This document shows, piece after piece, positions 38,197 to 60,391 of a stretch of 64,000 nt of DNA (positions within the stretch are counted from its first letter, which is position 1; the number at the start of each line of letters is the position of its first letter). Position numbers and translations under genes: made by a program. The stretch is from Margaritifera margaritifera (Eukaryota; Mollusca; Bivalvia; Unionida; Margaritiferidae), in NCBI GenBank assembly GCA_029931535.1, contig JAQPZY010001256.1:1768001-1832000 (forward strand), in the 5' to 3' direction. Below the pieces are notes generated by a model. It had not been told where the DNA came from and did not search any database. It saw only the letters and a program-made list of their open reading frames with translations.

Positions 38197-38231
38197 TCTT
38201 TCTTGAAAAATGGGTGGTCCTGATAAGGACC
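38197..38231 (-). terminator. histone-type 3' stem-loop with downstream element, gene 38247-38840
   Basis: Read on the minus strand, GGTCCTTATCAGGACC (38216-38231) forms a 6-bp stem with a 4-base loop. ACCCA follows, then CAAGAAAGA (38197-38205) ten bases after the stem. This matches the architecture of replication-dependent histone mRNA ends (stem-loop, ACCCA, U7-binding element). It starts 15 bases after the stop codon. Confidence 0.8.
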
Positions 38232-38246
38232 ATTGGAGGAAGATTA

Positions 38247-38840
38247 TTATTTCCTCCAACATTGGGTAAAGAAAGTTAGGAAGGTGGTGTGAGATCTTTT
38301 TTTCTTGGTTGGAAGTGTTGGTGAATCAGGTAGCCAGTCAGGATGTTTCATCCGCCTGAACTTATCCTGGATTTTCATCCAATTTAAATTCAGGCGTTCG
38401 AATTCCTTTTCTTTCCTGGCCTGTTCTTTCTTGGATCGTTCAAGAGCCCACAAGATCTTAATGTGGGTTACTTCCTTTTCTAAAACTTTCTTTAACAATA
38501 CCTTCACCATGTGAAGGTTCACCTCTTCGCGCCTGACATTACTGGCGGGTGGATAAATATAACAATGTTCCTGAACTCGGTTCAGGAAGTACTCCACCTC
38601 ATCCAGTAAATCCAGGCTCTTCTTGATGAACCCCACACGGCAAGGGGTTGAGGAAGTTTTTTGTCTTTCCTCCACCAAGACATCAGTCACCAACCTTCTC
38701 GCTGAAGTGAGAGCCGCTAGTTGGCTGGTGACGTATGGTTTGGTGGCAGGATATCTCCACCAATACTCCAACCTTTCCATCAAGGACTCCACATCCACCA
38801 TTCTATCCCAAGCTTCTTGTAACAATTCAACAGAGTTCAT
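38247..38840 (-). CDS. left-end helical protein of unknown function, 197 aa
   Basis: The outermost left gene of the Polinton, read towards the left terminus. It is not recognised. The protein is almost wholly helical and charged: residues 1-60 hold several W/Y/L heptad-like segments, and residues 105-165 a long charged helix rich in K/E (VLLKKVLEKEV...KEQARKEKEFERL). The C-terminus is basic with KKKRS near residue 178. Upstream on its strand is a TATA box with the conserved early block (38884-38910), and a histone-type stem-loop follows the stop by 15 bases. The gene at 60031-60276 holds the mirror position at the right end. An early regulatory role is only inferred from position and signals. 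Confidence 0.8.
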   Translation of the reverse strand: MNSVELLQEAWDRMVDVESLMERLEYWWRYPATKPYVTSQLAALTSARRLVTDVLVEERQKTSSTPCRVGFIKKSLDLLDEVEYFLNRVQEHCYIYPPASNVRREEVNLHMVKVLLKKVLEKEVTHIKILWALERSKKEQARKEKEFERLNLNWMKIQDKFRRMKHPDWLPDSPTLPTKKKRSHTTFLTFFTQCWRK

Positions 38841-38883
38841 TCTTGTAGAGTGAAAGTGTGAATGGTGAAACTGTGGAAGGCAC

Positions 38884-38910
38884 CTCTTTATATGCTAGAA
38901 GCGCGGACGT
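38884..38910 (-). promoter_or_regulatory. early-type promoter: conserved block + TATA
   Basis: On the minus strand ACGTCCGCGCTTCTAG is followed directly by CATATAAAGAGG. Nearly the same block and spacing stand before 60031 (59963-59987) and at 57642-57668. The start codon of the 197-aa gene lies about 50 bases downstream. Confidence 0.75.
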
Positions 38911-39131
38911 GATGGAAAACATCCCCCTTTTTTTTCCCCCCAAAAAACCATACATACAAACAAAACACACAACACACTATCCTTTTTTTTTTTTATATCA
39001 AACACAAACTTACACACACCATAATCATACAAGAGGAAAAGGTTTTTTTTTGTTTGGTGGGTAAAAAAAACCCAACACAAATCATATAAACATATAAAAC
39101 ACAAATATATATGGCAATCATTGAAAATTAA
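38911..39131. other. left subterminal spacer, mirror of the right spacer
   Basis: Low-complexity A/C- and T-rich sequence with no gene. Read inverted, it matches blocks of 59440-59960 in the same order (a 'gccatatat' block, 'gttttatatgttt', 'cccacc-aac', 'ccttttcc-cttgtatg', 'gatgttttcc'). The two ends of the element were therefore duplicated inversely beyond the TIR. Confidence 0.7.
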
Positions 39132-39168
39132 TCTTTTCTTTGAAAAATGGGTGGCCCTTAAAAGGACC
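39132..39168 (-). terminator. histone-type 3' stem-loop, gene 39187-39420
   Basis: On the minus strand GGTCCTTTTAAGGGCC (39153-39168) forms a 6-bp stem (one G-U pair) with a TTTA loop, then ACCCATTTTT and CAAAGAAAAGA (39132-39142). It begins 18 bases after the stop codon. Confidence 0.78.
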
Positions 39169-39186
39169 TTTTTTTTTGCTATATTT

Positions 39187-39420
39187 TTAGCAATGACATC
39201 GTTTGTTAGGTCTTCTTCTTATTCTTCTACTTCTTCTTACTTCTTCCCCATATATTAGTACTCTTTTCAAACATCCTTGTCTTTCAATGTATGTTCTTCT
39301 TTCCCAGTAGGCACTTTCATCAATTCTAGTGACTACCGATGATGCTCTAACATACATGAGATAGTCAGGATTGAAGAGCATTCCTGACACAATGCTTGAA
39401 GCTTCTACTGTAGTCCACAT
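39187..39420 (-). CDS. small basic protein of unknown function, 77 aa
   Basis: Not recognised. A 77-codon frame with a strongly basic end: residues 60-77 hold RRSRRIRRRPNKR, which could bind nucleic acid or act as a nuclear localisation signal. It is supported as a gene by a well-placed TATA (39465-39476), a close histone-type stem-loop after the stop, and its position mirroring the 149-aa gene at the right end. It diverges from the gene starting at 39637. Confidence 0.65.
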   Translation of the reverse strand: MWTTVEASSIVSGMLFNPDYLMYVRASSVVTRIDESAYWERRTYIERQGCLKRVLIYGEEVRRSRRIRRRPNKRCHC

Positions 39421-39464
39421 GATTCTTCTTTTTTTAGGTAAAGCTTTTATGAGACAAGTGGTGG

Positions 39465-39593
39465 TATATATACCTTACGATCGGATTGAAATGCATCGAA
39501 ATCAACTACCAATCCAATAGCGCGTTACAAGTGGGTCGGCTTTTCTTCCAATGGGAAGAGAGTAGGGGTATAACGTCATTTTGGGTATAAAGG
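39465..39593. promoter_or_regulatory. divergent promoter region between 39420 (-) and 39637 (+)
   Basis: GGTATATATACC at 39465-39476 is a palindromic TATA box suited to the minus gene. GTATAAAGG at 39585-39593 stands about 45 bases before the plus gene. Between them are CCAAT motifs ('ccaatcc' and 'ccaatgg') and an AACGTCAT half-site like a CRE near 39573-39580. Confidence 0.65.
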
Positions 39594-39636
39594 TATCGTA
39601 GCGTTCGTAGGGTTTATTACTTTTTCGACAGCCTTC

Positions 39637-40281
39637 ATGGAGACCGGAAAGACAAGTAGTATGTATTGGAGTGAGCCTTCAATGATTAATGCTGCTGCTG
39701 CTGCTGCTTTGCTGAACTTCCGACCGGAAGACTTTGATTTAGATTTTCTAAATCAAGAGTTTCAGCCTGAGACTACTACTACTGCTACTGTTGTTGCTTC
39801 AGCAGTGGATGAATTGATGGATGAATTAAAAAAAAAGCAACAGGAAGAGATGGAAATTTTTTTAAAGAAACAACGAGAGGATGAAGAAATGTTTCTTCTT
39901 CAGCAGCAGAAAGAAGAAGAAGAGAGAAGAAAAAAAAGCGAGGAAGAAATCAGACAACAGTTAGAAGAGGAGGAGAAGAAGGAAACAGCAAAGGAAGTCG
40001 TCAGTCCTGAAGAAAAATCGGTGAGTCTTTTAGAAGAGATATTATATGAGTTAAAACGGATGACAAACGCATATAAGTATTCTTTAACTCAGCCAAAGCG
40101 AAAAAGACCATCACGGGCTAAACATTCCAAACCTACCAGTTCTAGTGAGATGCCACCACCACCACCACCACCACCACAAACACCACCAGTGACTACCACC
40201 ATAAGCAAAACACCAGCAGTAGCAGCGGGATTTGGATTGGGTCGTGGTAAAGGACTACGACAATTGAAGTTGATCATGTAA
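39637..40281 (+). CDS. coiled-coil protein with proline and Gly/Lys-rich tail, 214 aa
   Basis: Not recognised by family. Order: an acidic, alanine-rich N-terminus (residues 1-50), a long K/E/Q-rich coiled coil (about 60-130), a polar hinge, a basic segment KRKRPSRAKH (about 152-161), a proline run (about 172-180), and a GLGRGKGLRQLKL tail. The TATA lies at 39585 and a histone-type stem-loop (40327-40342) follows the stop by 45 bases, placing it with the putative early genes. It may be a nuclear scaffold or regulatory protein; this is inference from composition only. Confidence 0.75.
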   Translation: METGKTSSMYWSEPSMINAAAAAALLNFRPEDFDLDFLNQEFQPETTTTATVVASAVDELMDELKKKQQEEMEIFLKKQREDEEMFLLQQQKEEEERRKKSEEEIRQQLEEEEKKETAKEVVSPEEKSVSLLEEILYELKRMTNAYKYSLTQPKRKRPSRAKHSKPTSSSEMPPPPPPPPQTPPVTTTISKTPAVAAGFGLGRGKGLRQLKLIM

Positions 40282-40326: not shown

Positions 40327-40361
40327 GGTCCTTTTAAGGTCCCCCAGATTTCTAGAAAAGA
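40327..40361 (+). terminator. histone-type 3' stem-loop, gene 39637-40281
   Basis: GGTCCTTTTAAGGTCC (40327-40342) has a 6-bp stem with one mismatch and a TTTA loop, followed by CCCCAG and TCTAGAAAAGAAA from 40351. It is a weaker match than the outermost copies but has the same order and spacing. Confidence 0.65.
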
Positions 40362-40381
40362 AATCAAATTGCCAAAAAATC

Positions 40382-40587: not shown

Positions 40588-41230
40588 TCACTTTCTGAAA
40601 TTCTTGTGCTTCTTGAATTGCGTCACAGGAATCATAGTTTCTTTTTCTTCATTCTCACTATCTCTTTTGTTTTTCTTGAATTTCTTCTTCATAGGGACCC
40701 TGATCGTCACAGGAATCATATCTTCTTCTTCTTCATTCTCACTGTCTTCCATTCTTCTCACTCTCTTCTTACTTTTCTTGATGATATGTTCTTCTTCTTC
40801 CTCTAGGTTTGAAGATCCTCCTTCTTCCTCCCTCTCCTCTGCTAGATTTTCTTCTTCTTCTTCTTCTTTCTGAGGGCACTCCGAAGACCAATGTCCTGGT
40901 CCTTTACAATAATAACAGATATCTTTTGTTTTGTCTCTCTTTTCTTTTTTTGGGCTTTCGACGTTGTGGGCATTCTGGAGCCCAATGTCCTTTCTCTTGA
41001 CAGATATAACAAGTATCTTCACTTTTATCTCTGATTTGATGTTGCCGTTGTGGACATTCTGGAGCCCAATGACCTTTCTCTTGACAGATATAACAAGTAT
41101 CTTGACGTTTATCTCTCACTGTTCTTCCTCGGGCTAGATAATCCCAATTATACTCAGAAGGATGTCCTTTCTTAGAGTATTGATTTTTTCTTCTTCTTGA
41201 CTCTTCCATCTTTACAGTTTGAAAGTTCAA
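40588..41230 (-). CDS. CCHC zinc-knuckle protein with three knuckles, acidic/basic tail, frame broken
   Basis: Zinc knuckles of the C-x2-C-x4-H-x4-C type bind single-stranded nucleic acid and are best known from retroviral nucleocapsid. Two nearly identical knuckles (CYICQEKGHWAPEC) lie in the frame starting at 41230 (or ATG 41209). The third (CYYCKGPGHWSSEC) lies in another frame that runs to 40588, so one frameshift separates them, close to a run of seven A near 40950. The remainder is a long Glu-rich stretch with KKSKKRVRR and KKKFKKNKR basic patches and a twice-repeated DSENEE-IPVT motif. It diverges from the polymerase gene and shares its intergenic promoter region. No histone-type stem-loop follows. 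Confidence 0.8.
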
Positions 41231-41338: not shown

Positions 41339-44300
41339 ATGAAAAGATCACGCCCAAACCATGAGAAACCAGAAGAAGAACAAGAAGAAACAAAGAAGCC
41401 ACGACGACGATTTTCCGTGCCACCTGAAACACCATTAGATGAACTACTAGCTCAAGTCCATGCCAGTGGCTTCGAAGAGGAGATGAGTGAACCTGAAACC
41501 TTACCACCTTTAAAACCACCCAAAACAAAATTCACCACCACTACCAACACCAGAACCCCAGACCAAGAAACACAATCTAGTACCTTGGCTGCTTCTGAAA
41601 ATTACTATCGGATTCGAGAGAGTCAAAAAATTACCTCTCGAAAATTTAGAACCACTGCCTACACTCATACGGTTCACTTCAAAGACTTCAAGTCCGAAGT
41701 ACCTCCCGAGAAAGCGGCGTGGTTCATTAGCGATTTGTGGAGTTCTGTGTTACAGAACTTGAAACGGCAATGTGGAGCCAAAGAAGATGATCGCTTGAGA
41801 CTGGCCATCAATCACGACAACTTGAAGAGTCCCGTTTGGATTGAGTTCAGCACTCCGGCAGAATTAACGCCAGACAAAGTCATGTCCAAAATAGAACATG
41901 TGCAACAATCCAATGACAAGTTTACCATCACCGATGGAAAGGTCACACTCTACATGACACACGTTGCTCCACCTCAAGGAAGTGGACGAAGCAGAAAACC
42001 GTTATTGGTGGACGATCTTCGTACTACCAAGCGTAGTATTGTCCAAATTGACAATACTCAAGACCAGATGTGCTTGGCTCGAGCTATTGTGGTGGGGCGT
42101 ACGTTTGCCAACAAGAATGAGAGTAAAGAATGGAAAAAAGCCTGGAAGAACATTCGACGATCGCAAAGACCCCAACAACGAAAAGAAGCAGAACTCCTGT
42201 TGCAACAAGCGGGGATCCCTAAAGAGACCGTGTGTGGTATTTCTCAAATTCAGAAACTTCAAGATGTTTTTGCTCCTCACTATACTTTGAAAGTTCACCC
42301 TCAAGAAGTGCGCGGAGATATGGTGTTTCGAGGCCCCGATTTCCCTGAAGGAAAATACATTCATCTCTATCACCATCAAGAACTTTTTGATACCATTACT
42401 AGTATTACAGGATTTTTGGGATACTCTTACTACTGTGAGAAATGCAACTATGGGTTTAACAGTCGAGAGAAACACATTCATTGCGGAGCAAGATGTCGGG
42501 GCTGTTTAGCAGACCAACCATGCCTTCCTGAACAACAACAACAACAACAAAATCACGTCCATTGTGAGGTGTGTCGACGAAGTTTTGTCAGTCCTTTTTG
42601 TTACCAACAGCATCGCAAGACACAAGGTCACCAACAAAAATGTGCTTGCGACTTATTGAAATCGTGTTCTACGTGTGGAAAGCTAATTCGTACCAACAAC
42701 CCCAAGAGACACGTTTGTGCTGGCAAGAAAAAATGTTCTATTTGTCATCAGATCGTCGATTTTGATCATCGGTGTTTTATTCAAAAGTTTGACAAGACAG
42801 AGAAGAAAGAAATAAAGAAGAAGAAGAACAAGAAACAAGTAGACTTCATCTTTTTTGATTTTGAATGCATGCAAGAAACGGGCATTCACATTCCAAATTT
42901 GTGTGGCGCATCGGGCTTGTGATCAGTGTATTCAAGAATCGATTCATTTTCACTGTCCTCATTGTAGTCGAATTCCAGGAGGACGTGAAAAAATCTTTCG
43001 TGGAGTTAACACTTTGTCCGAGTTTGCTGAATGGGTTTTAGACCCTACCACCCACGACAGTTGGAGCGAAGAAGACATTCAACGTTACAGAGATTGTCAT
43101 CGGTATGCCACCGTCATGGCTCACAATTTTTCGGGATACGATGGTCAGTTTTTACTCAGTTATTATTTGAACCATGGGACCGAACGTCCTGAAGTCACCA
43201 TGAACGGAAAAAAACTCATCTACATGAAAGTAAGGCAAGTACAGTTTAAAGATTCTATGAGTTATTTGGCCATGCCTTTGAGTCGCATGTCAAAAACGTT
43301 TGGCATGACAGAAATGGCTAAAGGCTACTTTCCTCACTTCTTCAACACGGAAGCTAATCAACATGCTGTCCTACCTCATTTACCTGACCTTCATGATTAC
43401 GACCCCGACGGAATGCGCCCCGAACAGCGAGAAGCTTTTCACACTTGGTACCGCGCTCACCAGACCGATCCATTTGACTTTCAAGAAGAGATGCTCAAAT
43501 ATTGTCGATCTGATGTGGATATTTTAAGACGTTGTTGTGGAAAGTTTCGAGAGTTATTTCTCGATCACGGAGAGGTTGATCCTTTGAAAGATGCAGCCAC
43601 CTTACCTAAAGCCTGTTCCTTAGTCTACAGGGAAAGTTTCATGCCCGAGAACCAACTAGCCATCATCGACTCCAACACGTCTCTCTTTGCTAGTCGTCAA
43701 AATTCGGTCAAAGCTTTACGTTGGTTTCATTACTTGTGTGAAAAAGAAGACAAATGGATACAACATGCTAGAAACGGAGGAGGAGAAAAGAAGATTGGAG
43801 GTTATTCCGTGCATGGATTTGATTTAGAAAACCCGCACACGGTATACGAGTTTCAGGGTTGTTTGTTTCACGGATGCCCTACTTGTTATCCTGATCGAGA
43901 GATGAAAGGCCCTTATTCAGATTCTACCATGGAACAGTTATACGAACAGACTTGCCAACGACGCCTCAAGTTAGAAAGTCAAGGATACCAAGTGGTAGAA
44001 ATGTGGGAGCACGAGTACGATCGACATTTGAAAACCGATCCTGAATTTAAAAACATTACCCAAAGTTACGACGCGGCTGCCATCGAACCTTTGGATCCGC
44101 GCCACAGTTTATTTGGAGGACGAACCAATGCCACTCGCTTGCTGTACAACGTGAATGAATCCCAAGGAGAGGAAATCAAATACATTGACGTGTGTTCTTT
44201 GTATCCTTGGGTGTGTAAATATGCTCGTTTTCCCACCGGTCACCCTGAAATTTTGACAGAACACATCGACGTGGAACACATTCGTCATACGAAGAATTAA

Positions 44301-45511
44301 TTAAATGTAAAGTATTACCTCCGACCCACTTGTACCATCCCATCTTACCTCACCATTGTCAAGGAAAACTGATGTTTCCTTTATGTCGGACGTGTGCTGA
44401 AAGGTGCAACCAAGATCAGCCCTGTCACCACACGGAGGAAGAACGGTCTTTGACAGGAACGTGGGTTAGCGTCGAATTGTTTCGGGCACTGGATCGTGGA
44501 TACCGTTTGTTGAAAGTATACGAAATCTGGCACTTTCCAACCACAGCCCAATACCAAAAGGACGACGCCACCAATCATCCAGGCATTTTCTCGGGGTACG
44601 TCAATCAGTTTTTAAAACTGAAACAAGAAGCTAGTGGTTATCCTTCGTGGTGTCAGACTCCCGAAGACCAAGAACGATTCAAAGAAGAGTACCGTGACAT
44701 CGAAGGCATCACTTTGGAAGAGGTGGAAAAAAATGAAGGAAAAAGATCGTTTGCCAAAGTGATGCTTAATTGCTTGTGGGGAAAAATGGCTCAACGTACG
44801 ATCTTACCCAAAACGGAATACGTCACCGATCCTTATCGTTACTTTCAATTGGTGGACGACAAAAATATACTAGTCAAACACGTCGAAATCGTCCGCGATG
44901 ATTTAATCATTGTCAATTTCGAAGAAGAACCCAAGTTTGTCAAACCTGACAAGTTTAGCAATGTAGTCATTGCCGCTTACGTGACCGCTCATGCTCGTTT
45001 GAAATTGTACGACGAAGCGTTAGAAGTCTTGGGAGATCGTGTCCTCTACTTTGATACTGACAGTTGCATCTACATCCATCGACCCGGTTGCCCACACCCT
45101 ACCATTCAAGGCGATCGTTTAGGAGCCTGGACAGACGAGCACCCTCAAGACACCATTCTGAGTTTTGCTAGCGGCGGCCCTAAAAATTATGGGTACCGAT
45201 ACCGAGACCCGCAAGGTCAACTTCACACCTCCTGTAAAGTCAAAGGCTTGACTCTCAACTATCGAACTAACCAAGTGGTGAACTTTGAGGTTTTAAAAAA
45301 TGCTTTACTGTCTGGACAAGTGGAAGACTTTCAAGTACCTACGTTAGAACCTCACAAGATTGTAGGCCTACCTAATCATCAAATCGTTACTCGACCTGTA
45401 CAAAAAGTGTACCGCATCGTGTACCAAAAACGAGTGAGACTTCCAGATCACACGACTTTACCTTATGGACACGTTGATTTGAAGTATAAAAAAAGGACAG
45501 CAGCCCCTTGA
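41339..45511 (+). CDS. polB: protein-primed family B DNA polymerase, split by two frameshifts
   Basis: Replicates the element from its terminal protein-primed ends. The full span is about 1390 codons, usual for Polinton PolB with its long N-terminal region. Piece 1 (41339-42922) has an N-terminal domain, Cys/His-rich fingers (about 42430-42770) and the exonuclease I motif DFE (residues 507-509). Piece 2 (to 44300) has Exo II NFSGYD, Exo III YCRSDVD and polymerase motif A (DVCSLYP). Piece 3 (to 45511) has motif B (VMLNCLWGKMAQ) and motif C (YFDTDS, about 45047-45062). Frames change near 42900 and near 44287, each by one base. All catalytic motifs are otherwise intact, so the breaks are recent or are assembly errors. 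TATA at 41288. Confidence 0.96.
45484..45494 (+). promoter_or_regulatory. TATA box for first BIR gene
   Basis: GTATAAAAAAA lies in the last codons of the polymerase gene, about 50 bases before ATG 45537. Confidence 0.65.
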
Positions 45512-45536
45512 ACAGAAAAAAAGGACAACACCAAAG

Positions 45537-45941
45537 ATGACTTCAACATTTGCCTTGCCTGACTATTGTGTGTGTACCAGTCGCTTGAAGACTTTCAAAA
45601 ATTGGCCTAAACACATGCCTGACTATTGTTATTGTCCTCATCGATGGAGCACATTCAAAAAAGGAAAAAAACTTAGGAAAAATGGATTACCTACTTCCCA
45701 CTCTTTAGTCAGAGCAGGATTTGTTTACTTTGGACAGGGAACCAAAGTACAGTGTTTTAGTTGTGGTGTCACTATTCGTATGGATTGTAAGAAATCAGCT
45801 CTCCTGGAACATGTCAGATGGTCACCAAACTGTGCTTACCTTTCTTTAGCGTTTCCACGGATCACATTACAATACTTTTCGGATGGTACAGTCGACAGGT
45901 ATAAAAAAGGAACCCCTTCCAAGCCTAACCCTTCATTCTGA
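45537..45941 (+). CDS. BIR-domain (IAP-like) protein, 134 aa
   Basis: BIR domains bind zinc and often caspases or their activators; viral IAP-like proteins block host cell death. Residues 55-105 carry AGFVYFGQGTKVQCFSCG and EHVRWSPNC, giving the C-x2-C ... H-x6-C zinc ligands. The conserved Trp after the CxxC pair is replaced (IRMD), so peptide binding may differ. There is no RING domain. Residues 1-45 contain two copies of a short D-Y-C-C-----TFK motif that look like a duplicated BIR start. A second, more canonical BIR gene follows 25 bases after the stop. Confidence 0.87.
   Translation: MTSTFALPDYCVCTSRLKTFKNWPKHMPDYCYCPHRWSTFKKGKKLRKNGLPTSHSLVRAGFVYFGQGTKVQCFSCGVTIRMDCKKSALLEHVRWSPNCAYLSLAFPRITLQYFSDGTVDRYKKGTPSKPNPSF
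45898..45910 (+). promoter_or_regulatory. TATA box for second BIR gene
   Basis: GGTATAAAAAAGG lies in the tail of the first BIR gene, about 60 bases before ATG 45967. Confidence 0.65.
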
Positions 45942-45966
45942 CTTTCAACGTTAACCAAGCAAGAAG

Positions 45967-46530
45967 ATGAGTCACGACTTGGAGTGTGATGCAGTACCAT
46001 GCGATGAAACGGATTCTGTACGGTTTGGCATCCCCGTTTCACACGTTCAAACGGATTCCGTAGCTTGTAACATCTTGGATTCAGGACCCTCTCCAAGTCT
46101 CACCACTCATCGACAACCCTCTAAAGAGGCAGTACGCCCTTTTTGCTTTAGTGGAAATACTAAAGGAACCGGTATTGACGTTAACGACAACAAGGTCAAT
46201 ATTGGTCAATATTCGCATGTCAGAATACCTGTGAGTTTACCTGGTTATTCCAAGTATGAAAGTCGACTCGAGTCATTCAAAGACAAGTGGCCAAAATATC
46301 TACAAGGACCTAAACCCGAAGATTTAGCTAGATCTGGATTTAAATACGCGGGAGAAGGAGATAAAGTTCAATGTTTCAGTTGTGGTTTGAAACTTCACCA
46401 ATGGGAGCCTACCGACTCAGCTTACATTGAACATGCCAGATGGTCTCCGCACTGTCAGTTCTTACCTTTAGTGGCTTTAGAAGAGTACGGGTACGATGAG
46501 CCAGATGCCAAACAGAAGAAGAAGAAATAG
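45967..46530 (+). CDS. BIR-domain (IAP-like) protein, 187 aa
   Basis: A canonical BIR lies in the C-terminal half (about residues 98-168): SFKDKWP, ARSGFKYAGEGDKVQCFSCG, then LHQWEPTDSAYIEHARWSPHC. All zinc ligands and the Trp of the peptide groove are present. The N-terminal 95 residues are unrecognised and carry repeated ETDSV/TDSVAC phrases; a TDSV phrase recurs in the neighbouring F-box-like frame at 47226. The protein ends in a KKKKK tail. It probably interferes with apoptosis or innate ubiquitin signalling, by family analogy. No RING is present, so it would not itself be a ubiquitin ligase. Confidence 0.9.
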   Translation: MSHDLECDAVPCDETDSVRFGIPVSHVQTDSVACNILDSGPSPSLTTHRQPSKEAVRPFCFSGNTKGTGIDVNDNKVNIGQYSHVRIPVSLPGYSKYESRLESFKDKWPKYLQGPKPEDLARSGFKYAGEGDKVQCFSCGLKLHQWEPTDSAYIEHARWSPHCQFLPLVALEEYGYDEPDAKQKKKK

Positions 46531-46547
46531 TTTTTTTAAAAAATTCC

Positions 46548-51104: not shown

Positions 51105-51144
51105 TCTCTGAAAAGACCACACCTTTTTGGTACCTTTGGATGAA

Positions 51145-51777: not shown

Positions 51778-51784
51778 GGGAATC

Positions 51785-52906
51785 ATGGAGAAACTGTTAG
51801 CTAGCCTTTATTACAATCCTGGTCATGCTGCTGGTTACGGAGGAGTTCAAAAATTATATCGAGCTGCTAAAAGTAAATTGAAAAGTGTACGTTTACCCGA
51901 AGTACGACGATGGTTACAAGAACAATCGACGTACACGTTACACAAACCCATTCGACGTAAATTTTCTAGAAGTACAACTCAAGTGGAAGACATCGATCAT
52001 CAATGGCAAGCCGATTTAGCCGACGTCTCTTATTTAGCCACTTACAATCGTGGTCACAAATATTTGTTTTGTGTCATCGACGTGTTTTCCAAATTTGCTT
52101 GGGTCGTGCCTTTGACCTCTAAAAGCAGTACCGAATTGGTACGTGCCTTAAAATTGGTCTTGAAACAAAGTGGACGCCAACCTTTACGATGGCAAACTGA
52201 CAAAGGCACCGAATTTCTAAACCAAGCTTTTCGAAAAGAATTGAAACAAAGACAAATTCATTTTTTTACTACCGAAAATGCTGAAACCAAAGCCAGTATC
52301 GTGGAACGTTTTCAAAGAACTTTGAAAGAACGTATGTGGAAATATTTTACACATCAACATACTCTCAAGTACATCGACGTGTTACCCCGTTTGGTTAAAG
52401 CGTACAATCAATCGTACCATCGTAGCATCGGATGTGCCCCCGAAGAGGTCAGCCCTGAAAACGAAGTGACCGTGTTTGATAAATTGTTTGGTTCACCCCA
52501 GAAAAAGAAGAAGAAGAAGAAGAAAACCTTGTTGGAGTTAAAGACGGGAGATTGGGTTCGCATCGGAAAAACCAAACGCACTTTTGACAAAGGTTATTTA
52601 CCCAACTGGACCACATAATTGTTTCGTGTCACTACCCCCGTCCGTGGTCGTGATCCTCCCGTCTATAAATTGGAAGACATGCACGGTGAAGTACTCAAAG
52701 GAACATTTTACTTGCCTGAGTTACAACGAGTGACCAAAAAAGAAGACGCCTTGTACGACATCGAAAGCATTCTCGAACAAAGAACACGTAAAGTAGGCAA
52801 ACGTCGAGTAGAAGAAGTCAAAGTACGTTGGAAAGGATATCCTCCTAGTTTTGATTCTTGGATTGCTGCTTCTCAAGTCGTCGACTATAAAAAGAAAAAG
52901 AAGTAA
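51785..52906 (+). CDS. retroviral-type integrase with C-terminal chromodomain, interrupted by one in-frame TAA
   Basis: Inserts the linear element into chromosomes, giving 6-base duplications. The rve core carries the D,D,E triad at D77 (QADLAD), D139 (QTDKGTEF) and E174 (ASIVER); D139 to E174 is 35 residues. A Lys run follows, then an SH3-like segment. A single TAA at 52616-52618 stops the frame, but the same frame continues to 52906 and encodes the rest of the SH3-like region and a chromodomain (YDIESILEQR ... VKVRWKGYP ... DSWIAAS). Without readthrough the product would lack the chromatin-reading part. Codon use is the same on both sides of the stop. Confidence 0.95.
52885..52894 (+). promoter_or_regulatory. 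TATA box for 52916 gene
   Basis: CTATAAAAAG lies in the last integrase codons, 31 bases before ATG 52916; close spacing leaves a very short leader. Confidence 0.55.
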
Positions 52907-52915
52907 CTCAACAAC

Positions 52916-53350
52916 ATGCCATTCAACACAGCAACCACGACTTCAACGACTCCTTCGCAGAGTTCTTCTCTTCAAGAATTACAAAAACAACCGCTTTGGG
53001 TGTGGTGCGGAGAACGTGTGCCTAAAAATCAAATCGTCTTTTTCTGCCAAATTTTTGTAGTGTATTGTGTCATCGGAGCAGCTATTGCCAATTTGAGTTT
53101 GCAGCAAGGAGACAAACAATTGTGGACCATTTTACTTAGCAGTTGCATCGGTTATCTTTTACCCAGTCCCTCTTTGAAATTTACGACGACAACGGACAAC
53201 AGTCACCACCACGGGAGTACGAGCAACGCCAGTCCACCTTCTTCTTCCAGTCATCACCAAAATACCAGTCCTCTTTTAGAACCCTTTGAACATCATTCTT
53301 CTGTTCACTTGAGTGACTCCTCGGAGACCAGAACCACCTTAGAACTATGA
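52916..53350 (+). CDS. small membrane protein with two hydrophobic spans, 144 aa
   Basis: Polinton protein of unknown role. After a Ser/Thr-rich leader and a W-W-C segment, it has two hydrophobic spans (about residues 40-60, IFVVYCVIGAAIANL, and 66-84, LWTILLSSCIGYLLP), then a long Ser/His/Pro-rich tail. Its TGA stop overlaps the ATG of the next gene (ATGA at 53347-53350), suggesting tight coupling with the minor capsid gene. Confidence 0.78.
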   Translation: MPFNTATTTSTTPSQSSSLQELQKQPLWVWCGERVPKNQIVFFCQIFVVYCVIGAAIANLSLQQGDKQLWTILLSSCIGYLLPSPSLKFTTTTDNSHHHGSTSNASPPSSSSHHQNTSPLLEPFEHHSSVHLSDSSETRTTLEL

Positions 53351-54375
53351 ATGACCAATTTTATTTAACTTTACCTAGTGACAGTTCCATGAATGTGTTT
53401 CCCAACAACACCTTATGTTGTTTCACCACCAAATTGCCTCAATCCATTCAATTGGATAACGATGCTCATTGGGAAGTAGGATTGGTAGAAATCATTCATC
53501 CTACGCAAATCATGAACATCAACAAAGGTCAAAACACTATCATTGTGGAAATCTTGAACAAAAATATACAAGATGAATTAGAAAAAAACGATCCTAAAAT
53601 CTGGGAAGGAGACAAAAATAATCCAGACATGAATAGAGCATTCAAAAAGTTTTCAGATCCAAAAAAAAAAAAAGATTCTGACATAAGGGTCTTTGGGCAG
53701 TATACCCTGAGAATTCCTACGGGGTATTATTTAAGTAGCCGACATTTGTGGGACACCATTGAGTCCACCATTGACAAGCAATTTAGCAAAGCCTTAACTC
53801 GTAACCAAAAACTTGTACAAATCGGTTTAAATGAGGTGGCACGCCGTTTCCACATAGAATTTGCTATGATGGATAAAGCTACTAATGAATTCATTGACGA
53901 CAAAACTGCTAAAGAAAGAAACATACCCTCCGAGGAGAGAAGATTCATGACCATCGAATTTTCTCCTGGATTGTATGCCATTTTGGGTGGAAATAAAGAG
54001 TATACCAATCGAAAAATCTCAACTAACATAGAATCCGCAGATGCTTTTAAACACCCTTTGGAATTGAACATGGGACTGAATTTAATGTTTGTGTACTCCG
54101 ATGTGGTAGAGTACAACGTGGTGGGACACACATCTGCTCCCTTACTGAGAGTCATTCCTTTCAAAGTGGATACTGCTGCTGGTGCGTACGAAGAAGGTGG
54201 AAACACGTTTCACGTTCACCGTGAATTTGTACACCCTCATTATCTTTCAGTCAGTTAATCGTATTTTGACAGTGTCAACATTAGTATAAAAGGAGATTTA
54301 GGACAAGATGTACCATTCATTGACCAAGGAAAAGTCACGGTGAAACTACATTTTCGAAAAAAACAAGTTCTCTAA
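53347..54375 (+). CDS. probable minor capsid (penton-type) protein, last 38 codons cut off by an in-frame TAA
   Basis: The N-terminus FYLTLPSDSSMNVFPNNT followed by FTTKLPQSI and WEVGLVEIIHP is the signature of a conserved Polinton structural protein, taken to be the single-jelly-roll penton. A TAA at 54256-54258 ends the frame after 303 codons. The same frame then continues with family-like sequence (VPFIDQGKVTVKLHF) to a natural stop at 54373-54375. Loss of the last jelly-roll strand would probably damage capsid assembly. The assignment as penton rather than another capsid part rests on gene order and family knowledge. Confidence 0.85.
54284..54293 (+). promoter_or_regulatory. TATA box for 54400 gene
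   Basis: GTATAAAAGG lies 107 bases before ATG 54400, inside the cut-off tail of the minor capsid gene. Confidence 0.55.
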
Positions 54376-54399
54376 CGAATTGTAACCTCCCCAAAAAAA

Positions 54400-54843
54400 A
54401 TGTATCCAGTGTACCGAGGAGTGACTCGACAACGAGGACATGGTTTAGGAGATATGTTAAGATCAGCTTTTCGGACGGTAGCTCCTATTTTGAAACCGAT
54501 GGTGTCTCGAGGATTTCATGCCTTAAAAGATGCTGCTTTGACACAAGGAAAAGAATTTTTGCAAAATGTCCTCATCGACAAACAAAATCCTAAAGAAGCC
54601 TTTATGAGAGCAGGCAAAAATGTGTTGATGACCACTGGTAAAGATCTTTTAGGTCTCCGAGAAAATCCTATAAATACGCTTAACGCTTCAGGCTCTGGCA
54701 TTACTTCACAGCAAGGACAAGGTAGAAAGAGACGACGACGACATCGAAATCCTTTCAAAGTTCATAAAAGAACACACGGTAGTTCCAAAAAGAATAGGAA
54801 AAGAAAAAGAACCGTCAGAGAATTAGACGTGTTTGATTATTAA
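54400..54843 (+). CDS. basic virion protein, 147 aa
   Basis: Common in Polintons between the two capsid genes; role unproved. Residues 1-45 form an amphipathic region with Gly/Leu (GLGDMLRSAFRTVAPILKP), resembling membrane-lytic or cement proteins such as adenovirus pVI by character only. The middle has a TGKDLLG motif. The C-terminal third is strongly basic (GRKRRRRHR, KKNRKRKR), then ELDVFDY. The frame is intact. Confidence 0.8.
   Translation: MYPVYRGVTRQRGHGLGDMLRSAFRTVAPILKPMVSRGFHALKDAALTQGKEFLQNVLIDKQNPKEAFMRAGKNVLMTTGKDLLGLRENPINTLNASGSGITSQQGQGRKRRRRHRNPFKVHKRTHGSSKKNRKRKRTVRELDVFDY
54668..54676 (+). promoter_or_regulatory. possible TATA box for major capsid gene
   Basis: CTATAAATA lies in the preceding gene, 233 bases before ATG 54901; the distance is long, so this is uncertain. 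Confidence 0.35.
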
Positions 54844-54900
54844 AAACCATTGAAAATGATGCACTGAGATTCTTGCGAATGTACCAAGTCAGAACTGGAT

Positions 54901-56238
54901 ATGTTTACCATGCCTCCCACCATGATGACGATGCAAGAATCCCAATGGGTGGAATTTCATCCTGTATCGTCTTTGTCGGATTCAGCTCCTATCGAATTTG
55001 AAATCAAAGGACAAACCGACGATTACATTGATCTGAATGACAGCTACTTGTTCCTGAAACTCAAAGTGATCAATACGACGAACAACACCCTTCCTGATGG
55101 CAATTCCAGAGTCGCTCCAGTCAATAATTTCATGCATTCCTTGTTCAGTGGAATAGATTTGTACTTGAATAACAAACTGGTCAGCAGCAGTTTGGATACT
55201 TACCCTTACCGTGCTTACTTGGAAAATCTCTTGACGTATGGAAAAGAAGCCAAGAACACTCATCTGGATGCTTCAGTGGTCTGGAAACCTGACACAGCAG
55301 GAGAAAATACCTTCAACGACACAGAGGTGTCAGTACCGGCGAGGGTTGCTGCTGTTGTTGAGGATCAGGGTCATCTTGTTAGAGATATAACTCCAGCAGA
55401 ACCCCATAATGTGGGGTTTAACGAGCGTCGAAAGAAAATCAGAGGGCACAGTTTAGAATTGATGGATCGTTTGCATTTGGACATGTGGATGCAAGACAAG
55501 TATTTGTTGAACGGAGTAGATGTACGTCTGAGACTAAATCGCAGTAGTGCCGCTTTCCATTTGATGGCTAATACTAACGAGTGGAAAACTGTCATCCAAG
55601 AAGCCAAACTTTATGTGCGACGTGTAGAAGTCTTACCAAAAGTGGCCAACGACATCAGTCAAACCTTGAGCAGAACCACTGCTAAGTATCCTCTTAGACG
55701 TGTGGAAGTGAAAACCTTTACTGTGGCCGCTGGCCTCCGATCCATAGTCGAAGATCACATCTTCCAAGGGCAGCTCCCCAAACGCTTGCTGATTGGTATG
55801 GTCAGAAATTCAGCCTTCAACGGAGTCCACGAACAGAATCCGTTCCAGTTTCAGCACTTTAACGTCTCCAAGATAGAAGTCAGTCGAGATGGCACGACCT
55901 TGTGTACCAGACCTTTTGAACCTGACTTTAGCGTCAACGCAAAAAATTACTTACGATCTTACTTGACCCTGTATGAAGCCACAGGACAGTTAGGCACCAA
56001 CAGTAGCCACGGTATTACGTACGACGATTTTGCAGGAGGGTATGCCTTGTGGGGATTTGATTTCACTCCGGACCAAGGCAGCGATGAAGGACATTTCCAC
56101 CCTATAAAATCAGGCCCCCTTCGAGTGGAACTTCAGTTTACAGCTCCTCTACCTGAGACAGTGAACGTCGTCTTGTATGCAGAATTTGATAACACTCTAG
56201 AGATCAACAGTTTGAAAGAAGTAATTCAAGACTATTAG
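54901..56238 (+). CDS. major capsid protein (double jelly-roll, Polinton PY type), 445 aa
   Basis: Forms the hexon-like trimers of the predicted particle. Family features: an N-terminal WVEFHPVSSLSDSAPIEFEI, DDYIDLNDSYLFLKLKV, and the strongly conserved NNFMHSLFSGIDLYLNNK followed by YPYRAYLENLLTYG, also seen in the nematode F54H12.2-type homologues. The C-terminal jelly roll ends with a GPLRVELQF segment and YAEFDNTLEI. Length is typical (about 450). The frame is uninterrupted, unlike the minor capsid gene. Confidence 0.95.
   Translation: MFTMPPTMMTMQESQWVEFHPVSSLSDSAPIEFEIKGQTDDYIDLNDSYLFLKLKVINTTNNTLPDGNSRVAPVNNFMHSLFSGIDLYLNNKLVSSSLDTYPYRAYLENLLTYGKEAKNTHLDASVVWKPDTAGENTFNDTEVSVPARVAAVVEDQGHLVRDITPAEPHNVGFNERRKKIRGHSLELMDRLHLDMWMQDKYLLNGVDVRLRLNRSSAAFHLMANTNEWKTVIQEAKLYVRRVEVLPKVANDISQTLSRTTAKYPLRRVEVKTFTVAAGLRSIVEDHIFQGQLPKRLLIGMVRNSAFNGVHEQNPFQFQHFNVSKIEVSRDGTTLCTRPFEPDFSVNAKNYLRSYLTLYEATGQLGTNSSHGITYDDFAGGYALWGFDFTPDQGSDEGHFHPIKSGPLRVELQFTAPLPETVNVVLYAEFDNTLEINSLKEVIQDY
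56102..56110 (+). promoter_or_regulatory. TATA box for 56250 gene
   Basis: CTATAAAAT lies inside the major capsid gene, 148 bases before ATG 56250. Confidence 0.45.
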
Positions 56239-56249
56239 AAGAAAAAAAG

Positions 56250-56822
56250 ATGCAGCACGAAGAACCTATGGAGATAGATGAGGGATTTTGTGAAGTGATT
56301 CAACAGTCACAAACTACCACAAAGGATGATGATGACGAAGTCATTCATTCAGTACCTCGAATAGAAGAAGAAGAAGAAGAAGAAAACAATTCAGTTCCAA
56401 AGTTTACTGGATTTATGGCTTGTCGATGGCCAGAACAAGAAAAACAGTTAGTGTCCTGTTATGCTCAGGAATTGAATGTAAAAATTAACAGTCTGATTAA
56501 AGAAAATTGTTATGGATGTCAAAACGATCATCCCAGTCAGATACAACACGATCAATGTATGATGTTGACAGGTGAAGAACAATTGGATGAATATTTGGAA
56601 ACGGCATGGAAACAAATCTCAGATGAACACGTGTTGAAACAGTGGTATAAAGTCTTCCAGAATTATTCTTCTTCTCCACTTACTCTTCTGGAGATCAGAC
56701 GTATAGAAGGACTCATTGAACAGAGTGCAGAGCCTATCCGACGTGAATATTCCTGGAATTACAAGACAGATCAATTCAAGTTTAAAGTCAGGTGTGAATT
56801 GCTGACCTATTATTTCCATTGA
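56250..56822 (+). CDS. Polinton protein with CYGC-HPSQ motif, 190 aa
   Basis: Function unknown, but the motif NCYGCQNDHPSQIQHDQCMM (about residues 89-108) is a recurrent signature of Polinton-encoded proteins next to the capsid and protease genes, with Cys/His spacing that could bind metal. The first 50 residues are acidic (DDDDE and EEEEEEE runs). The rest is helical with several Trp residues. The frame is intact, lies 11 bases after the major capsid stop, and ends 26 bases before the protease ATG. Confidence 0.8.
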   Translation: MQHEEPMEIDEGFCEVIQQSQTTTKDDDDEVIHSVPRIEEEEEEENNSVPKFTGFMACRWPEQEKQLVSCYAQELNVKINSLIKENCYGCQNDHPSQIQHDQCMMLTGEEQLDEYLETAWKQISDEHVLKQWYKVFQNYSSSPLTLLEIRRIEGLIEQSAEPIRREYSWNYKTDQFKFKVRCELLTYYFH

Positions 56823-56848
56823 AGACAAAAAAAAAAAAAAAAAAAAAA

Positions 56849-57415
56849 ATGGATACTAGAGAACTTTATTACCTATTGACTCGTAGTTCCTACACTTCTT
56901 CTTGGAATCCTGTGGTATGTGCTAAAGATGAACTACCTCATCGTAAACCGAAAAACGTTCATGCCTATATCATCAATACCGACGACAGTCATCTACCAGG
57001 AACCCATTGGGTTGCCGTGTACTTTCCCAACGCTCACTGTGTGGAATATTTTGATTCTTATGGATTACCTCCTTTGGAAGACGACATCATCGACTTTATG
57101 AGAAGAAATGCCGTCTCGACTCGATTCAATAATGTTCAATTACAAGGATCGGATTCCATGGTGTGTGGACAATATTGTGTACATTTTCTTCATCACCGCA
57201 GTCTTGGATATTCCTTAGAACATTTACTGACTTGGTTTGATAGAAACTATGCTCGAAACGATGCTAAAGTACAACAATGGTTTTGTGAACATTATGGTTA
57301 TCTCTTGTCTTTAGCTCAGAAACGTAATGTTAATCAGAATGATGTCGATGTAGAAAGGTGGAGGTTTAGTTTACCACCCCAACGTTGTCAACCTTGTAAA
57401 TATGTTCCTGTTTAA
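56849..57415 (+). CDS. adenain-like (Ulp1/C5-type) cysteine maturation protease, 188 aa
   Basis: Cleaves capsid and core precursors during particle maturation. Catalytic residues by family alignment: H53 (GTHWVAVYF), D69 (EYFDSYG), Q99 (QLQGSDS) and C106 (MVCGQYC); Q to C spacing is 7, as in adenain. Length is close to adenovirus protease. The ATG at 56849, after a long A-run, is chosen; an upstream in-frame ATG only adds a Lys run. A Cys/Pro-rich tail (QRCQPCKYV) closes the protein. The frame is intact. Confidence 0.94.
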   Translation: MDTRELYYLLTRSSYTSSWNPVVCAKDELPHRKPKNVHAYIINTDDSHLPGTHWVAVYFPNAHCVEYFDSYGLPPLEDDIIDFMRRNAVSTRFNNVQLQGSDSMVCGQYCVHFLHHRSLGYSLEHLLTWFDRNYARNDAKVQQWFCEHYGYLLSLAQKRNVNQNDVDVERWRFSLPPQRCQPCKYVPV

Positions 57416-57640
57416 AAAATTTCTTGTTGAATTGTTAGTATTTTTATGTTAGAATGGTTATTGTTGATTAAAAAAATGGTTATTGTTGAAAAAAAAATGG
57501 TGTTGTGTGTTTTTTTTAATTTAATTTGAAAAAAAAAATAATTATGTTCTCTCTCTCTTTCTATCGATCTAAAAAAAACTATCCTCTTTCCTCTATCTGT
57601 GATCTCACTGTCGATCTGAAAACCTTACCATGTTTTCCAT
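57416..57640. other. A/T-rich spacer after the protease
   Basis: Short A-runs and 'ggttattgttga' repeats; no gene seen. It separates the late block from the right-end early-looking units. Confidence 0.7.
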
Positions 57641-57692
57641 CGCGTCCGCGCGTTAAGCATATAAAGCGGTGCGTTGGCCAGTGTAGTCATCA
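57641..57692 (+). promoter_or_regulatory. early-type promoter with shared start region
   Basis: CGCGTCCGCGCGTTAAG followed by CATATAAAGCGG resembles the promoters at both ends of the element. About 13 bases further, CAGTGTAGTCAT (57680-57691) recurs exactly at 58901-58912 in front of the 149-aa gene, as expected for a shared transcription start region. Confidence 0.7.
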
Positions 57693-57820
57693 GCTTTTTC
57701 ATTCCACATTCAGGTAGCAGCAGGTGGAGAGTGTAGACGTGTGGCAGACGTGCTAACCGGTAGAGGGAGACGCAGTGGACGAGGAGGGAAGGAGGCAGTC
57801 TTGGCAGCCTTGCAGCGGCT

Positions 57821-58044: not shown

Positions 58045-58080
58045 AGTCCTTCTAAGGGCTAAACAGTCCTTCTAAGGGCT
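58045..58080 (+). terminator. tandem pair of histone-geometry stem-loops
   Basis: AGTCCTTCTAAGGGCT occurs twice (58045-58060 and 58065-58080), separated by AAAC. Each forms a 6-bp stem (one T-G pair) with a TCTA loop, the same size as the stem-loops near the ends, but without ACCCA or a CAAGAAAGA element after it. Confidence 0.55.
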
Positions 58081-58953: not shown

Positions 58954-59367
58954 ATGGCAGCAACCAAGATTACAAAGCTGAATGAAGCTATGGTAAACAT
59001 TATGAGGGTGAAGAATCATTTGATGGAAACCCAGCCGGAGAGAAAGATGATGACGTTCATTCAAATGGCGCATGATCTAGTAGAAGAGGTCCTGAGAGAA
59101 GAAATACTTCGGGAAAGAACAGAATGGGAGGTGGGACAACGACTACAGCAGCAGCAGCAACAACAAAGACAACAACAACAGCAACAGCAACAACAACTTA
59201 TGCAGTCTAACAAACTACCTGACGGCGAAGTAAGTTGTAAGATTGACTGTGAAGAATTTGCCTTCTCTTTCACCCGAAAGAGACCTGCCTGCCTTAAAGC
59301 TGTGAGACCTATTGCTAAACGTGGCCGCCCTGCTGGAGCTGCTGCTACTTCACCCCTAAGAAGTTAA
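58954..59367 (+). CDS. right-end polyglutamine protein, 137 aa
   Basis: Not recognised. From ATG 58954 it has a helical N-terminus (residues 1-60, Met/Glu/Leu-rich), two Gln runs (about 69-88) encoded by CAA/CAG repeats, then VSCKIDCEEFAFSF and a basic tail (RKRPAC, AKRGRPAG). The GRPAG element resembles an AT-hook core, so DNA binding is possible. It has an early-type start region and a histone-type stem-loop 30 bases after the stop. It sits in mirror position to the 77-aa gene of the left end. Confidence 0.72.
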   Translation: MAATKITKLNEAMVNIMRVKNHLMETQPERKMMTFIQMAHDLVEEVLREEILRERTEWEVGQRLQQQQQQQRQQQQQQQQQLMQSNKLPDGEVSCKIDCEEFAFSFTRKRPACLKAVRPIAKRGRPAGAAATSPLRS

Positions 59368-59397
59368 AAAAAACAACATAACTTCTTAAAACCCAAC

Positions 59398-59437
59398 TGT
59401 CCTTTTAAGGGCCACCCCCAATCTCTAGAAAAGATTA
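59398..59437 (+). terminator. histone-type 3' stem-loop, gene 58954-59367
   Basis: TGTCCTTTTAAGGGCC (59398-59413) folds with five pairs and a TTTA loop; ACCCCC follows, then CTCTAGAAAAGATTA (59423-59437). Same order as the copies at the element's ends. Confidence 0.7.
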
Positions 59438-59856
59438 CTACTCTCATATTGCCATATATAACGTGTTTTATATGTTTGTATGTTTGTATGTTTGTGATAA
59501 CCCACCCAACAAAAAAACCCTTTTCCCCTTGTATGTTTTGCGGCGTGTGTTGAATATAAAAATTTTTTTTTAAAAAAGTAAAAAAAGGGTTTGTGTGGTG
59601 TGTGAAAGTTTAATATAAAAATTTTTAAAAAAGTAAAAAAAATGGATAGTGTGGTGTGTGTAAGTTTGTGTTTGATATTTAAAAAAAAAAAATATAAAAA
59701 ATAAATTGTATGTTTTATGGTGTGTGCTTGGTTTATAAAAAAAAAAAAAAAATATGGATGGTATGGTGTGTGTTTGATTTTTATTAAAAGTAGTTTCTTT
59801 TAGGTCCGCGCTTTTTAGAGTAAGGGGTGATGGAGTGCAAAATCCGCGAAGCCTAG
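59438..59856. other. right subterminal spacer
   Basis: Low-complexity A/T/G sequence with repeated 'gtatgtttgt' and 'tataaaaattttt' units and no gene. It mirrors the left spacer in inverse order. At 59803-59812 a GGTCCGCGCTTTTTAG block resembles the early promoter block but lacks a TATA box. Confidence 0.7.
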
Positions 59857-59858
59857 AA

Positions 59859-59880
59859 TGACGTCAAAAGAATGACGCCA
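59859..59880 (+). promoter_or_regulatory. CRE/ATF-like sites upstream of 60031 gene
   Basis: A perfect palindromic TGACGTCA at 59859-59866 is followed by TGACGCCA at 59873-59880. These lie about 100 bases before the TATA-containing block and could bind host CREB/ATF/AP-1 factors. Confidence 0.6.
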
Positions 59881-59962
59881 GACGCGGGGTAGTGGGGTGA
59901 TTTTTTTTTTGTTTTTGTTGTTTTTTGTTTGTTTTTTTTAGGTGTAAGGGATGTTTTCCTTC

Positions 59963-59988
59963 ACGTCCGCGCTTCTAGTATATTAAAA
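59963..59988 (+). promoter_or_regulatory. early-type promoter: conserved block + TATA
   Basis: ACGTCCGCGCTTCTAG followed by TATATTAAAA. The 16-base block is identical to that of the left-end gene (38884-38910, minus strand). ATG 60031 lies about 45 bases downstream. Confidence 0.75.
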
Positions 59989-60030
59989 CAACACCTTCCC
60001 CGATAGAGCTACCCTCGTTTATTCAAGAGA

Positions 60031-60276
60031 ATGAATAAGACTGAAACAATCAGACAGATTCGGGTTCATCTAGAGGTGGCGTGGCACCTCCTCCAAGACT
60101 TGGAGAAGAAGGAGAAGGAGGAGGGGGAGAAGGAGGAGAAAGAGAAGAATATCCCCATCAAACCCCACCGGATGATCGAGGAGCAGGACACCAATAACGA
60201 GAATTGGGATCCAGAAGCGGACCATCCTCCCTTTATACTAAAAAACTCAAACAAATGTATGAGTTTTAAAACATGA
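60031..60276 (+). CDS. right-end small acidic protein, 81 aa
   Basis: The outermost right gene, reading towards the terminus. It is not recognised. An N-terminal helix (IRVHLEVAWHLLQDLEKK) is followed by a Glu/Lys-rich run and an acidic, proline-containing tail. It mirrors the 197-aa gene of the left end in position, promoter and 3' signal, but the proteins are hardly alike. After the stop come a perfect 8-bp hairpin (60285-60304) and the histone-type stem-loop at 60357. Confidence 0.7.
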   Translation: MNKTETIRQIRVHLEVAWHLLQDLEKKEKEEGEKEEKEKNIPIKPHRMIEEQDTNNENWDPEADHPPFILKNSNKCMSFKT

Positions 60277-60356
60277 AGGGGGAGTTGCCCTGCGTGCAGG
60301 GCAAAGCCTGGGAGGTGCCCACACCTCCTCTAAATGAACTCTTCAACAAATCCAAC

Positions 60357-60391
60357 GGTCCTTATCAGGACCACCCATTTTTCAAGAAAGA
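60357..60391 (+). terminator. histone-type 3' stem-loop with downstream element, gene 60031-60276
   Basis: AACGGTCCTTATCAGGACC with a perfect 6-bp stem (60357-60372) is followed by ACCCATTTTT and CAAGAAAGA (60383-60391). It lies in the TIR, so both outermost genes use the same copy of the signal. Confidence 0.82.

Follow-up and report, generated by a model that had tools for sequence, protein, structure and literature searches.

Histone-type 3'-end signals at the terminal genes of a Polinton in the genome of Margaritifera margaritifera

The stem-loop of animal histone mRNAs spans 16 nucleotides (nt) with the consensus GGYYYUHHUHARRRCC, and the activity of SLBP, the protein that binds it, is tied to S phase. 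To our knowledge, 3' ends of this type are regarded as a special property of histone genes. Here, we analyze a window of 64,000 nt from the 2.45-Gb genome of the bivalve Margaritifera margaritifera (contig JAQPZY010001256.1, positions 1,768,001 to 1,832,000), in which a Polinton of 22,791 bp (37912-60702) carries five small genes, A to E, toward its two ends. At the level of sequence, the ends of these genes are histone-type 3'-end signals. The initial annotation of the window had proposed as much, and the proposal is supported by the ends of host histone genes, which match in 12 of 12 cases with the same spacing, and by diverged copies of the element that retain the signal. Passages of two papers describe how such signals work in histone mRNAs: SLBP binds the stem-loop, the histone downstream element (HDE) pairs with U7 small nuclear RNA, and the transcript is cut a few bases past the stem and receives no poly(A) tail (PMC9756948, PMC1924863). 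For Caenorhabditis elegans, the relevant passages of PMC1924863 place the ends of histone mRNAs 3 to 6 nt past the hairpin. There, too, a stem-loop is joined to a conserved downstream element, but a poly(A) signal follows right after that element, whereas genes A to E have none within 300 nt.

How the five genes compare with described systems depends on the part considered. They are like the replication-dependent histone genes of animals (RF00032; processed by SLBP and U7) in the 16-nt stem-loop, the HDE, and the spacing, in being small genes of a single open reading frame (ORF), and in lacking a poly(A) signal within 300 nt. They are not replication-dependent histone genes by definition, as no core or linker histone is encoded, and Pfam detected no histone or other family in genes A, C, and D (E ≤ 0.01) or in genes B and E (E ≤ 0.05). 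The element shares with Polintons/Mavericks (adintovirus-like) PolB, an integrase, an ATPase, a weakly matching protease, a putative capsid-type protein, terminal inverted repeats (TIRs), a 6-bp target-site duplication, and AG...CT termini, and differs from them in the histone-type 3' ends of its terminal genes. Adenovirus is alike in that both of its termini hold small accessory genes, some of them on opposite strands. In the adenovirus-type layout, early genes lie at the genome ends, and the early mRNAs of adenovirus are polyadenylated, unlike what the histone-type signals of the window element would predict.

Stem-loops and downstream elements in the window

Five 16-nt stem-loops, said in the initial annotation to lie 15 to 80 nt past stop codons and to be oriented with their genes, were all confirmed in the sequence, with their positions and strands. 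Each is on the coding strand, and the distance from the stop codon is 15 nt for gene A, 18 nt for gene B, 45 nt for gene C, 30 nt for gene D, and 80 nt for gene E. Gene A (38247-38840, minus strand; 197 amino acids [aa]) ends in the left TIR with a stem-loop at 38216-38231 (minus) that reads GGTCCT-TATC-AGGACC followed by ACCCA and scores 35.7 bits against the Rfam model RF00032 (Histone3). Gene B (39187-39420, minus; 77 aa) is followed by GGTCCT-TTTA-AGGGCC (39153-39168, minus; 34.8 bits). The signal of gene C (39637-40281, plus; 214 aa, low-complexity) lies at 40327-40342 (plus), has a T·T mismatch in its third pair, lacks one base 3' of the stem, and scores 17.8 bits. That of gene D (58954-59367, plus; 137 aa), at 59398-59413 (plus), has T·C as its first pair and scores 19.8 bits in a match that starts at 59393 (plus). 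Gene E (60031-60276, plus; 81 aa) ends in the right TIR with a stem-loop at 60357-60372 (plus; 37.6 bits). The RF00032 gathering score is 34 bits; thus, three of the five sites pass it, and those at 40327 and 59398 are subthreshold.

Each stem-loop is followed by two further elements. The first is HDE-like and reads CAAGAAAGA behind genes A (38197-38205, minus) and E (60383-60391, plus), CAAAGAAAAGA behind gene B (39132-39142, minus), and CTAGAAAAGA behind genes C (40352-40361, plus) and D (59425-59434, plus). The description first given, ten bases and then CAAGAAAGA, therefore holds for the two copies in the TIRs and fails for the site at 39153 and for those at 40327 and 59398. The second element, TTGCC, was absent from the initial annotation and is found 26 to 36 nt past the stem at all five sites (gene A, 38176-38180, minus; gene B, 39113-39117, minus; gene D, 59449-59453, plus; gene E, 60409-60413, plus), being nearer, at 26 nt, behind gene C (40369-40373, plus).

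The five signals did not arise by chance. A covariance model, R2, was derived from 55 copies at other places in the genome, leaving the window out, and was used to score every position of the 64-kb window. R2 returned exactly the five sites, at 76.1, 71.8, 68.5, 60.9 (gene D), and 46.1 (gene C) bits, with rough E values of 1.2e-14 to 7.2e-8; the sixth-best match in the window reached 16.8 bits at a similarly rough E value of 0.31. As the model is independent of the window, chance origin is ruled out.

Two of the signals are bound up with the repeats. The left TIR arm spans 37912-38237 and the right arm spans 60351-60702, and the inner edge of each is the 5' flank of a stem-loop, with similarity between the arms stopping about 5 bases 5' of it. 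The signals of genes A and E are thus the same sequence in two arms and count as one signal rather than two independent ones. Moreover, because the stem-loop has its upstream edge right at the inner boundary of the repeat, any gene that abuts a TIR is provided with the same 3' end. An artifact of the repeats would account for two of the five sites and is false for the other three. In nine other copies, gene E has a signal of its own 75 to 80 nt past the gene end, nearly the same distance as in the window (83 nt by the same measure), and for that reason the TIR version appears to have taken the place of the gene E signal in the window, possibly through conversion between the arms.

The stem-loops might instead be signals in DNA, either replication hairpins at the ends of a linear genome with protein priming or simple transcription terminators. 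Their presence in the TIRs at two of five sites fits such a role, and the TIRs also hold another inverted repeat, a nearly perfect one of 41 bp with an 11-nt spacer in each arm (38068-38160 and 60434-60526). Three of the five stem-loops lie outside the TIRs, however, the HDE and TTGCC occur solely on the gene-sense 3' side, and the same asymmetric signal ends the host histone genes. We regard a role in DNA as extremely improbable.

The inner genes of the element differ from the terminal ones. We called a stem-loop strong when it had at least five of six pairs and at least 15 of 16 consensus letters, and none of the 21 inner ORFs had a strong stem-loop within 200 nt. One of them, the second of two ORFs with a BIR domain, has a stem-loop of weak level nearby (5 pairs, 13 letters). 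The other inner ORFs score 14 to 16 of 22, and the five terminal genes score 20 to 22. No A(A/T)TAAA hexamer occurs within 300 nt 3' of any of the five genes.

The signal in other copies and in host histone genes

Copies of the signal are numerous in the host genome. A search with RF00032 gave 75 scored sites out of 508,685 first-pass candidates, all above the cutoff and reaching 45.8 bits, and we analyzed 68 of the 75, which fall in 66 loci. A consensus stem-loop lies 3' of an A-to-E gene in 63 of the 66 loci; the other three have the stem-loop, the purine element, and TTGC with no recognized gene end. Counted by stem-loop, 118 of 129 strict-consensus copies follow a recognized gene. The remaining 11 comprise eight with the purine element and TTGC and three without the purine element, which appear to be palindromic sites read on the reverse strand.

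Counted by gene, 119 of 121 sampled ends carry a strong stem-loop, a tally that leaves out one end cut off in the sequence. All 61 ends by which loci had been selected are strong, as are 58 of the 60 nonselecting ends, one of the other two being weak and one having none; the latter (gene A of locus L003) probably represents another aligned piece of a gene that is in the tally already. Strong stem-loops appeared in 2 of 3,000 mononucleotide-shuffled stretches and in 264 of 3,000 random 220-nt stretches of the same loci, the latter because many of these presumably contain true sites. The copies are diverged, and aligned pieces of gene A are 31 to 84% identical to the gene in the window.

The alignment of 60 copies, 55 from elsewhere and 5 from the window, shows how the stem is maintained. 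Six standard pairs form in 47 of the 60 stems, five in 12, and four in one; 96.1% of the 360 stem cells are paired, and 11 cells changed on both sides. Pairs 3 and 4 alternate among C-G, U-G, and U-A. The covariation score was 0.186, compared to 0.148 ± 0.011 in shuffles, and was reached by 0 of 500 of them. Counts of pairs and of further pair types were reached by 443 of 500 shuffles and thus are not in excess. Around gene A, mean pairwise identity is 0.85 over the stem-loop and 0.96 and 0.92 over the next 25 nt, and it falls to 0.19 to 0.46 from 61 nt downstream onward (0.29 at 61 to 80 nt and 0.19 at 81 to 100 nt). The profile of gene B resembles that of gene A. The signals of genes C, D, and E stand out less from the flank downstream and hence lend lesser support, and the stretch that directly precedes the stem is fairly conserved as well.

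A fragment of a histone 3' untranslated region (UTR) could have been captured once by an ancestral element and carried along without function. All copies indeed come from one host genome and share ancestry, and the outermost two signals of the window are TIR duplicates. Passive carriage, however, is hard to reconcile with a signal that, in diverged copies, follows five different genes on either strand and is present at nearly every sampled end. Moreover, the stem has undergone compensatory changes, and identity drops downstream of the signal, clearly for genes A and B and less so for genes C, D, and E. Capture without function is quite improbable.

Comparison with the histone genes of the host had been set beforehand as a possible refutation. 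A genome search with PF00125 gave 150 scored matches of 645 candidates, and the genes are arranged in tandem on three contigs, in arrays that repeat about every 8 kb. We read 12 ends (L072 to L083; 10 distinct sequences), belonging to five H3 genes, four H2B genes, one H4 gene, one H2A gene, and one member of another array. The H2A gene was identified by Pfam, and the H3 and H2B genes match PF00125 and were assigned on the presumption that their C termini are those of H3 and H2B; the H4 gene, for which the Pfam histone model scores below the cutoff, is one that we take to be H4 from its sequence. By their sequence features, the host histone genes are presumably of the animal type.

All 12 host ends match the Polinton signal. 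The stem-loop is present in each of them, with a broken first pair in one (contig C226), as is a purine element (for example, CTCTAGAAAAGA, CATGAAAAGAG, and CAAGAAAAGA), and a TGCC-type element lies 31 to 35 nt past the stem in 11 of the 12. R2, a model of Polinton copies only, detects all 12 host ends (E values of 4e-13 to 2.8e-8), and RF00032 scores nine of ten host sites at 34.2 to 40.6 bits and one at 20.9 bits. The core of the HDE starts 13 nt past the stem in 50 of 60 Polinton sites and in 10 of 12 host sites. We conclude from these sequence comparisons that genes A to E carry what would be functional histone-type 3' ends.

The distal element is also common to the two. In the host, it reads TTGCC in the H2B, H4, and H2A genes and in the further array and TGCC or TGGCC in four of the five H3 genes, with none in the fifth. 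In the Polinton copies, it lies 32 to 39 nt past the stem in 45 of 60 and 26 to 28 nt past it in 9 of 60 and is unmatched by the pattern in 6 of 60. No TTGCC-like element is known to us from the 3' processing of histone mRNAs. The shared sequence might serve U7 as an additional pairing site or bind a protein, and it points to a further conserved element in host histone 3' ends. By contrast, the immediate flanks differ. Among the 60 Polinton copies, the stem is preceded by CCAAC in 43 and followed by ACCCA in 52, whereas among the 12 host ends it is preceded by AAAC in 11 and followed by ACACA or ATACA in 10. Thus, recent copying from the UTRs of the host genes that were read is ruled out as the origin of the Polinton signal.

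Predicted processing and expression

How the signals would act follows from their likeness to those of the host, and because the two are equivalent, a route through SLBP and U7 is expected for the Polinton mRNAs. Host SLBP would bind the stem-loops, the U7 small nuclear ribonucleoprotein would pair with the HDE (sequence AAGAAAAGA), and CPSF73 would cut a few bases past the stem, leaving the mRNAs of genes A to E to end there without poly(A). These early-type genes might in turn be expressed mainly where SLBP and U7 are active, namely during S phase and in embryonic or germ cells that cleave rapidly, at times when a nuclear DNA element would be able to replicate. The inner block of polymerase and capsid genes is without histone-type ends, a candidate poly(A) signal ATTAAA (57467-57472, plus) lies 54 nt past the last coding base of the protease, and the block may use ordinary polyadenylation. 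Because two of the signals lie in inverted repeats, transcripts that run outward would also stop at them, shortly before either end of the element. Taken as a whole, the best explanation, and one that we consider very likely, is that five terminal genes carry the host histone 3'-end signal, are processed by SLBP and U7 into tail-less mRNAs, and are expressed in S phase or in embryos.

Processing by SLBP and U7 may, however, serve another purpose, namely to supply tail-less mRNAs to oocytes and early embryos or to permit expression while poly(A) processing is inhibited. SLBP-type processing occurs in oocytes and embryos of several animals, and mobile elements need to be active in the germ line, both of which speak for such a purpose. 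All of the sequence evidence is common to the two explanations and does not separate them. We rate a purpose other than S-phase expression as the second most likely explanation, possible if doubtful in itself, and as it shares the processing step with expression in S phase, the odds of the two overlap.

Several observations weigh against processing of the histone type or against parts of it. Two of the five stems in the window have a broken pair. The loci were found through RF00032, such that copies without the signal are undersampled; the only ends to escape this bias are the 60 nonselecting ones, and these come from loci with one good signal. Relatedness alone can lift a covariation score above that of shuffles without any structure. 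Gene D has an AATAAA about 335 nt downstream (at 59700), and 18 of the 21 inner ORFs are likewise without A(A/T)TAAA within 300 nt, three having one, the protease among them; since few inner ORFs have the hexamer, its absence behind genes A to E supports processing of the histone type weakly. The step to S phase draws on general knowledge of SLBP. Finally, four Polinton pieces (L027 to L030), present as contaminants in prokaryotic assemblies of symbionts or metagenome-assembled genomes, contain neither the histone-type signal nor relatives of genes A to E. The refutation named in the initial annotation, a motif lacking in related elements and unlike the host histone ends, failed within the host genome, and the four pieces from other assemblies speak against generality. 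Inverted repeats, and with them element ends, were not recognized in the four pieces. Locus L027 stops soon after the protease, and L028, L029, and L030 continue beyond the capsid gene for 10, 5.5, and 7.6 kb, a stretch in which the right-hand genes would fall given the same layout. Because these three extend past the capsid gene without the signal or genes A to E, histone-type ends may well be confined to one Polinton lineage.

We lean toward the broader proposition that a whole Polinton lineage took over the histone mRNA pathway, with early genes expressed as tail-less mRNAs in S phase or in cleaving embryos and late genes expressed as polyadenylated ones. If so, the element would read the replication state of the cell through RNA 3'-end processing, a new way of tying the expression of a parasite to DNA replication of its host, and its mRNAs would be a natural nonhistone substrate of the SLBP/U7 machinery. 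Such processing would also explain why these transcripts would be missed in poly(A) RNA-seq. In the open-licence PMC literature, neither narrow topics, covered in full, nor the leading 15 to 20 matches to broad ones gave a report of histone-type ends in Polintons, Mavericks, or adintoviruses, and in the available portions of two Maverick/adintovirus papers (PMC8097293 and PMC11071296), a word search gave no passage on a stem-loop or a histone 3' end.

The element and its surroundings

Identification of the element as a Polinton, also made in the initial annotation, stands. It starts with AG, ends with CT, and is flanked by the 6-bp target-site duplication GACACA (37906-37911 and 60703-60708), and together with the TIRs these features agree with the Polinton/Maverick criteria. 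Pfam matches above the cutoff are DNA_pol_B_2, rve (core of a retroviral-type integrase), and Pox_A32 (A32-like ATPase); an adenovirus-type protease (Peptidase_C5) matched at an E value of 0.0039, under the Pfam cutoff. The inner gene block (41339-57415, plus) encodes PolB, BIR proteins, the ATPase, the integrase, capsid-type proteins, and the protease. Because the PolB matches are split over two adjacent ORFs (43116-44300 and 44372-45511), the copy in the window may be decayed or spliced. The capsid-type protein (445 aa), the candidate for a double-jelly-roll major capsid protein, has no Pfam match and 963 relatives. Among the best 120 of these, the named eukaryotic ones are bivalve proteins called "F54H12.2-like," which we take to be the Polinton capsid protein (44 to 51% identity), and the four best are 72 to 78% identical. 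Searches of viral contigs through the capsid protein, its alignment, or the stem-loop pattern gave no relatives.

Genes A to E offer few clues to their products. Genes A and D have no protein relatives at an E value of ≤0.001, and the fold of gene A predicted from one sequence is all-helical at low to moderate confidence (mean pLDDT, 67.9). Gene D contains IDCEE, an LxCxE-like motif and the sole [LI]xCxE among 26 ORFs scanned. The motif would suit an early protein that binds Rb and is a lead only, being kept in four of seven copies with that of the window counted. A 39-nt block, 92% alike, lies upstream of genes A and E (38887-38925 and 59948-59986) just before a TATA-like stretch and is a candidate common promoter element. 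The arrangement of the terminal genes varies between elements, with each gene retaining its own stem-loop. Seven loci (L009, L010, L011, L022, L024, L026, and L052) have the order D-E-A at one end; in the window, gene A is at the left end only.

Some further features were noted. The sixth-best R2 match corresponds to tandem degenerate stem-loops (58045-58060 and 58065-58080) that read AGTCCT-TCTA-AGGGCT and are followed by TTGCC at 58087. Upstream of them, a block at 57630-57708 is 75% like the region upstream of gene A, and the site is possibly a decayed sixth histone-type gene end. The two BIR-domain (inhibitor-of-apoptosis) ORFs lie at 45537-45941 and 45967-46530 (Pfam E values of 1.3e-15 and 7.3e-24). 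An ORF of 101 aa at 40904-41209 (minus) has two CCHC zinc knuckles. Finally, outside the Polinton, the window contains an ORF of 251 aa at 34671-35426 (minus), which we take to resemble a fragment of a Penelope-type reverse transcriptase.

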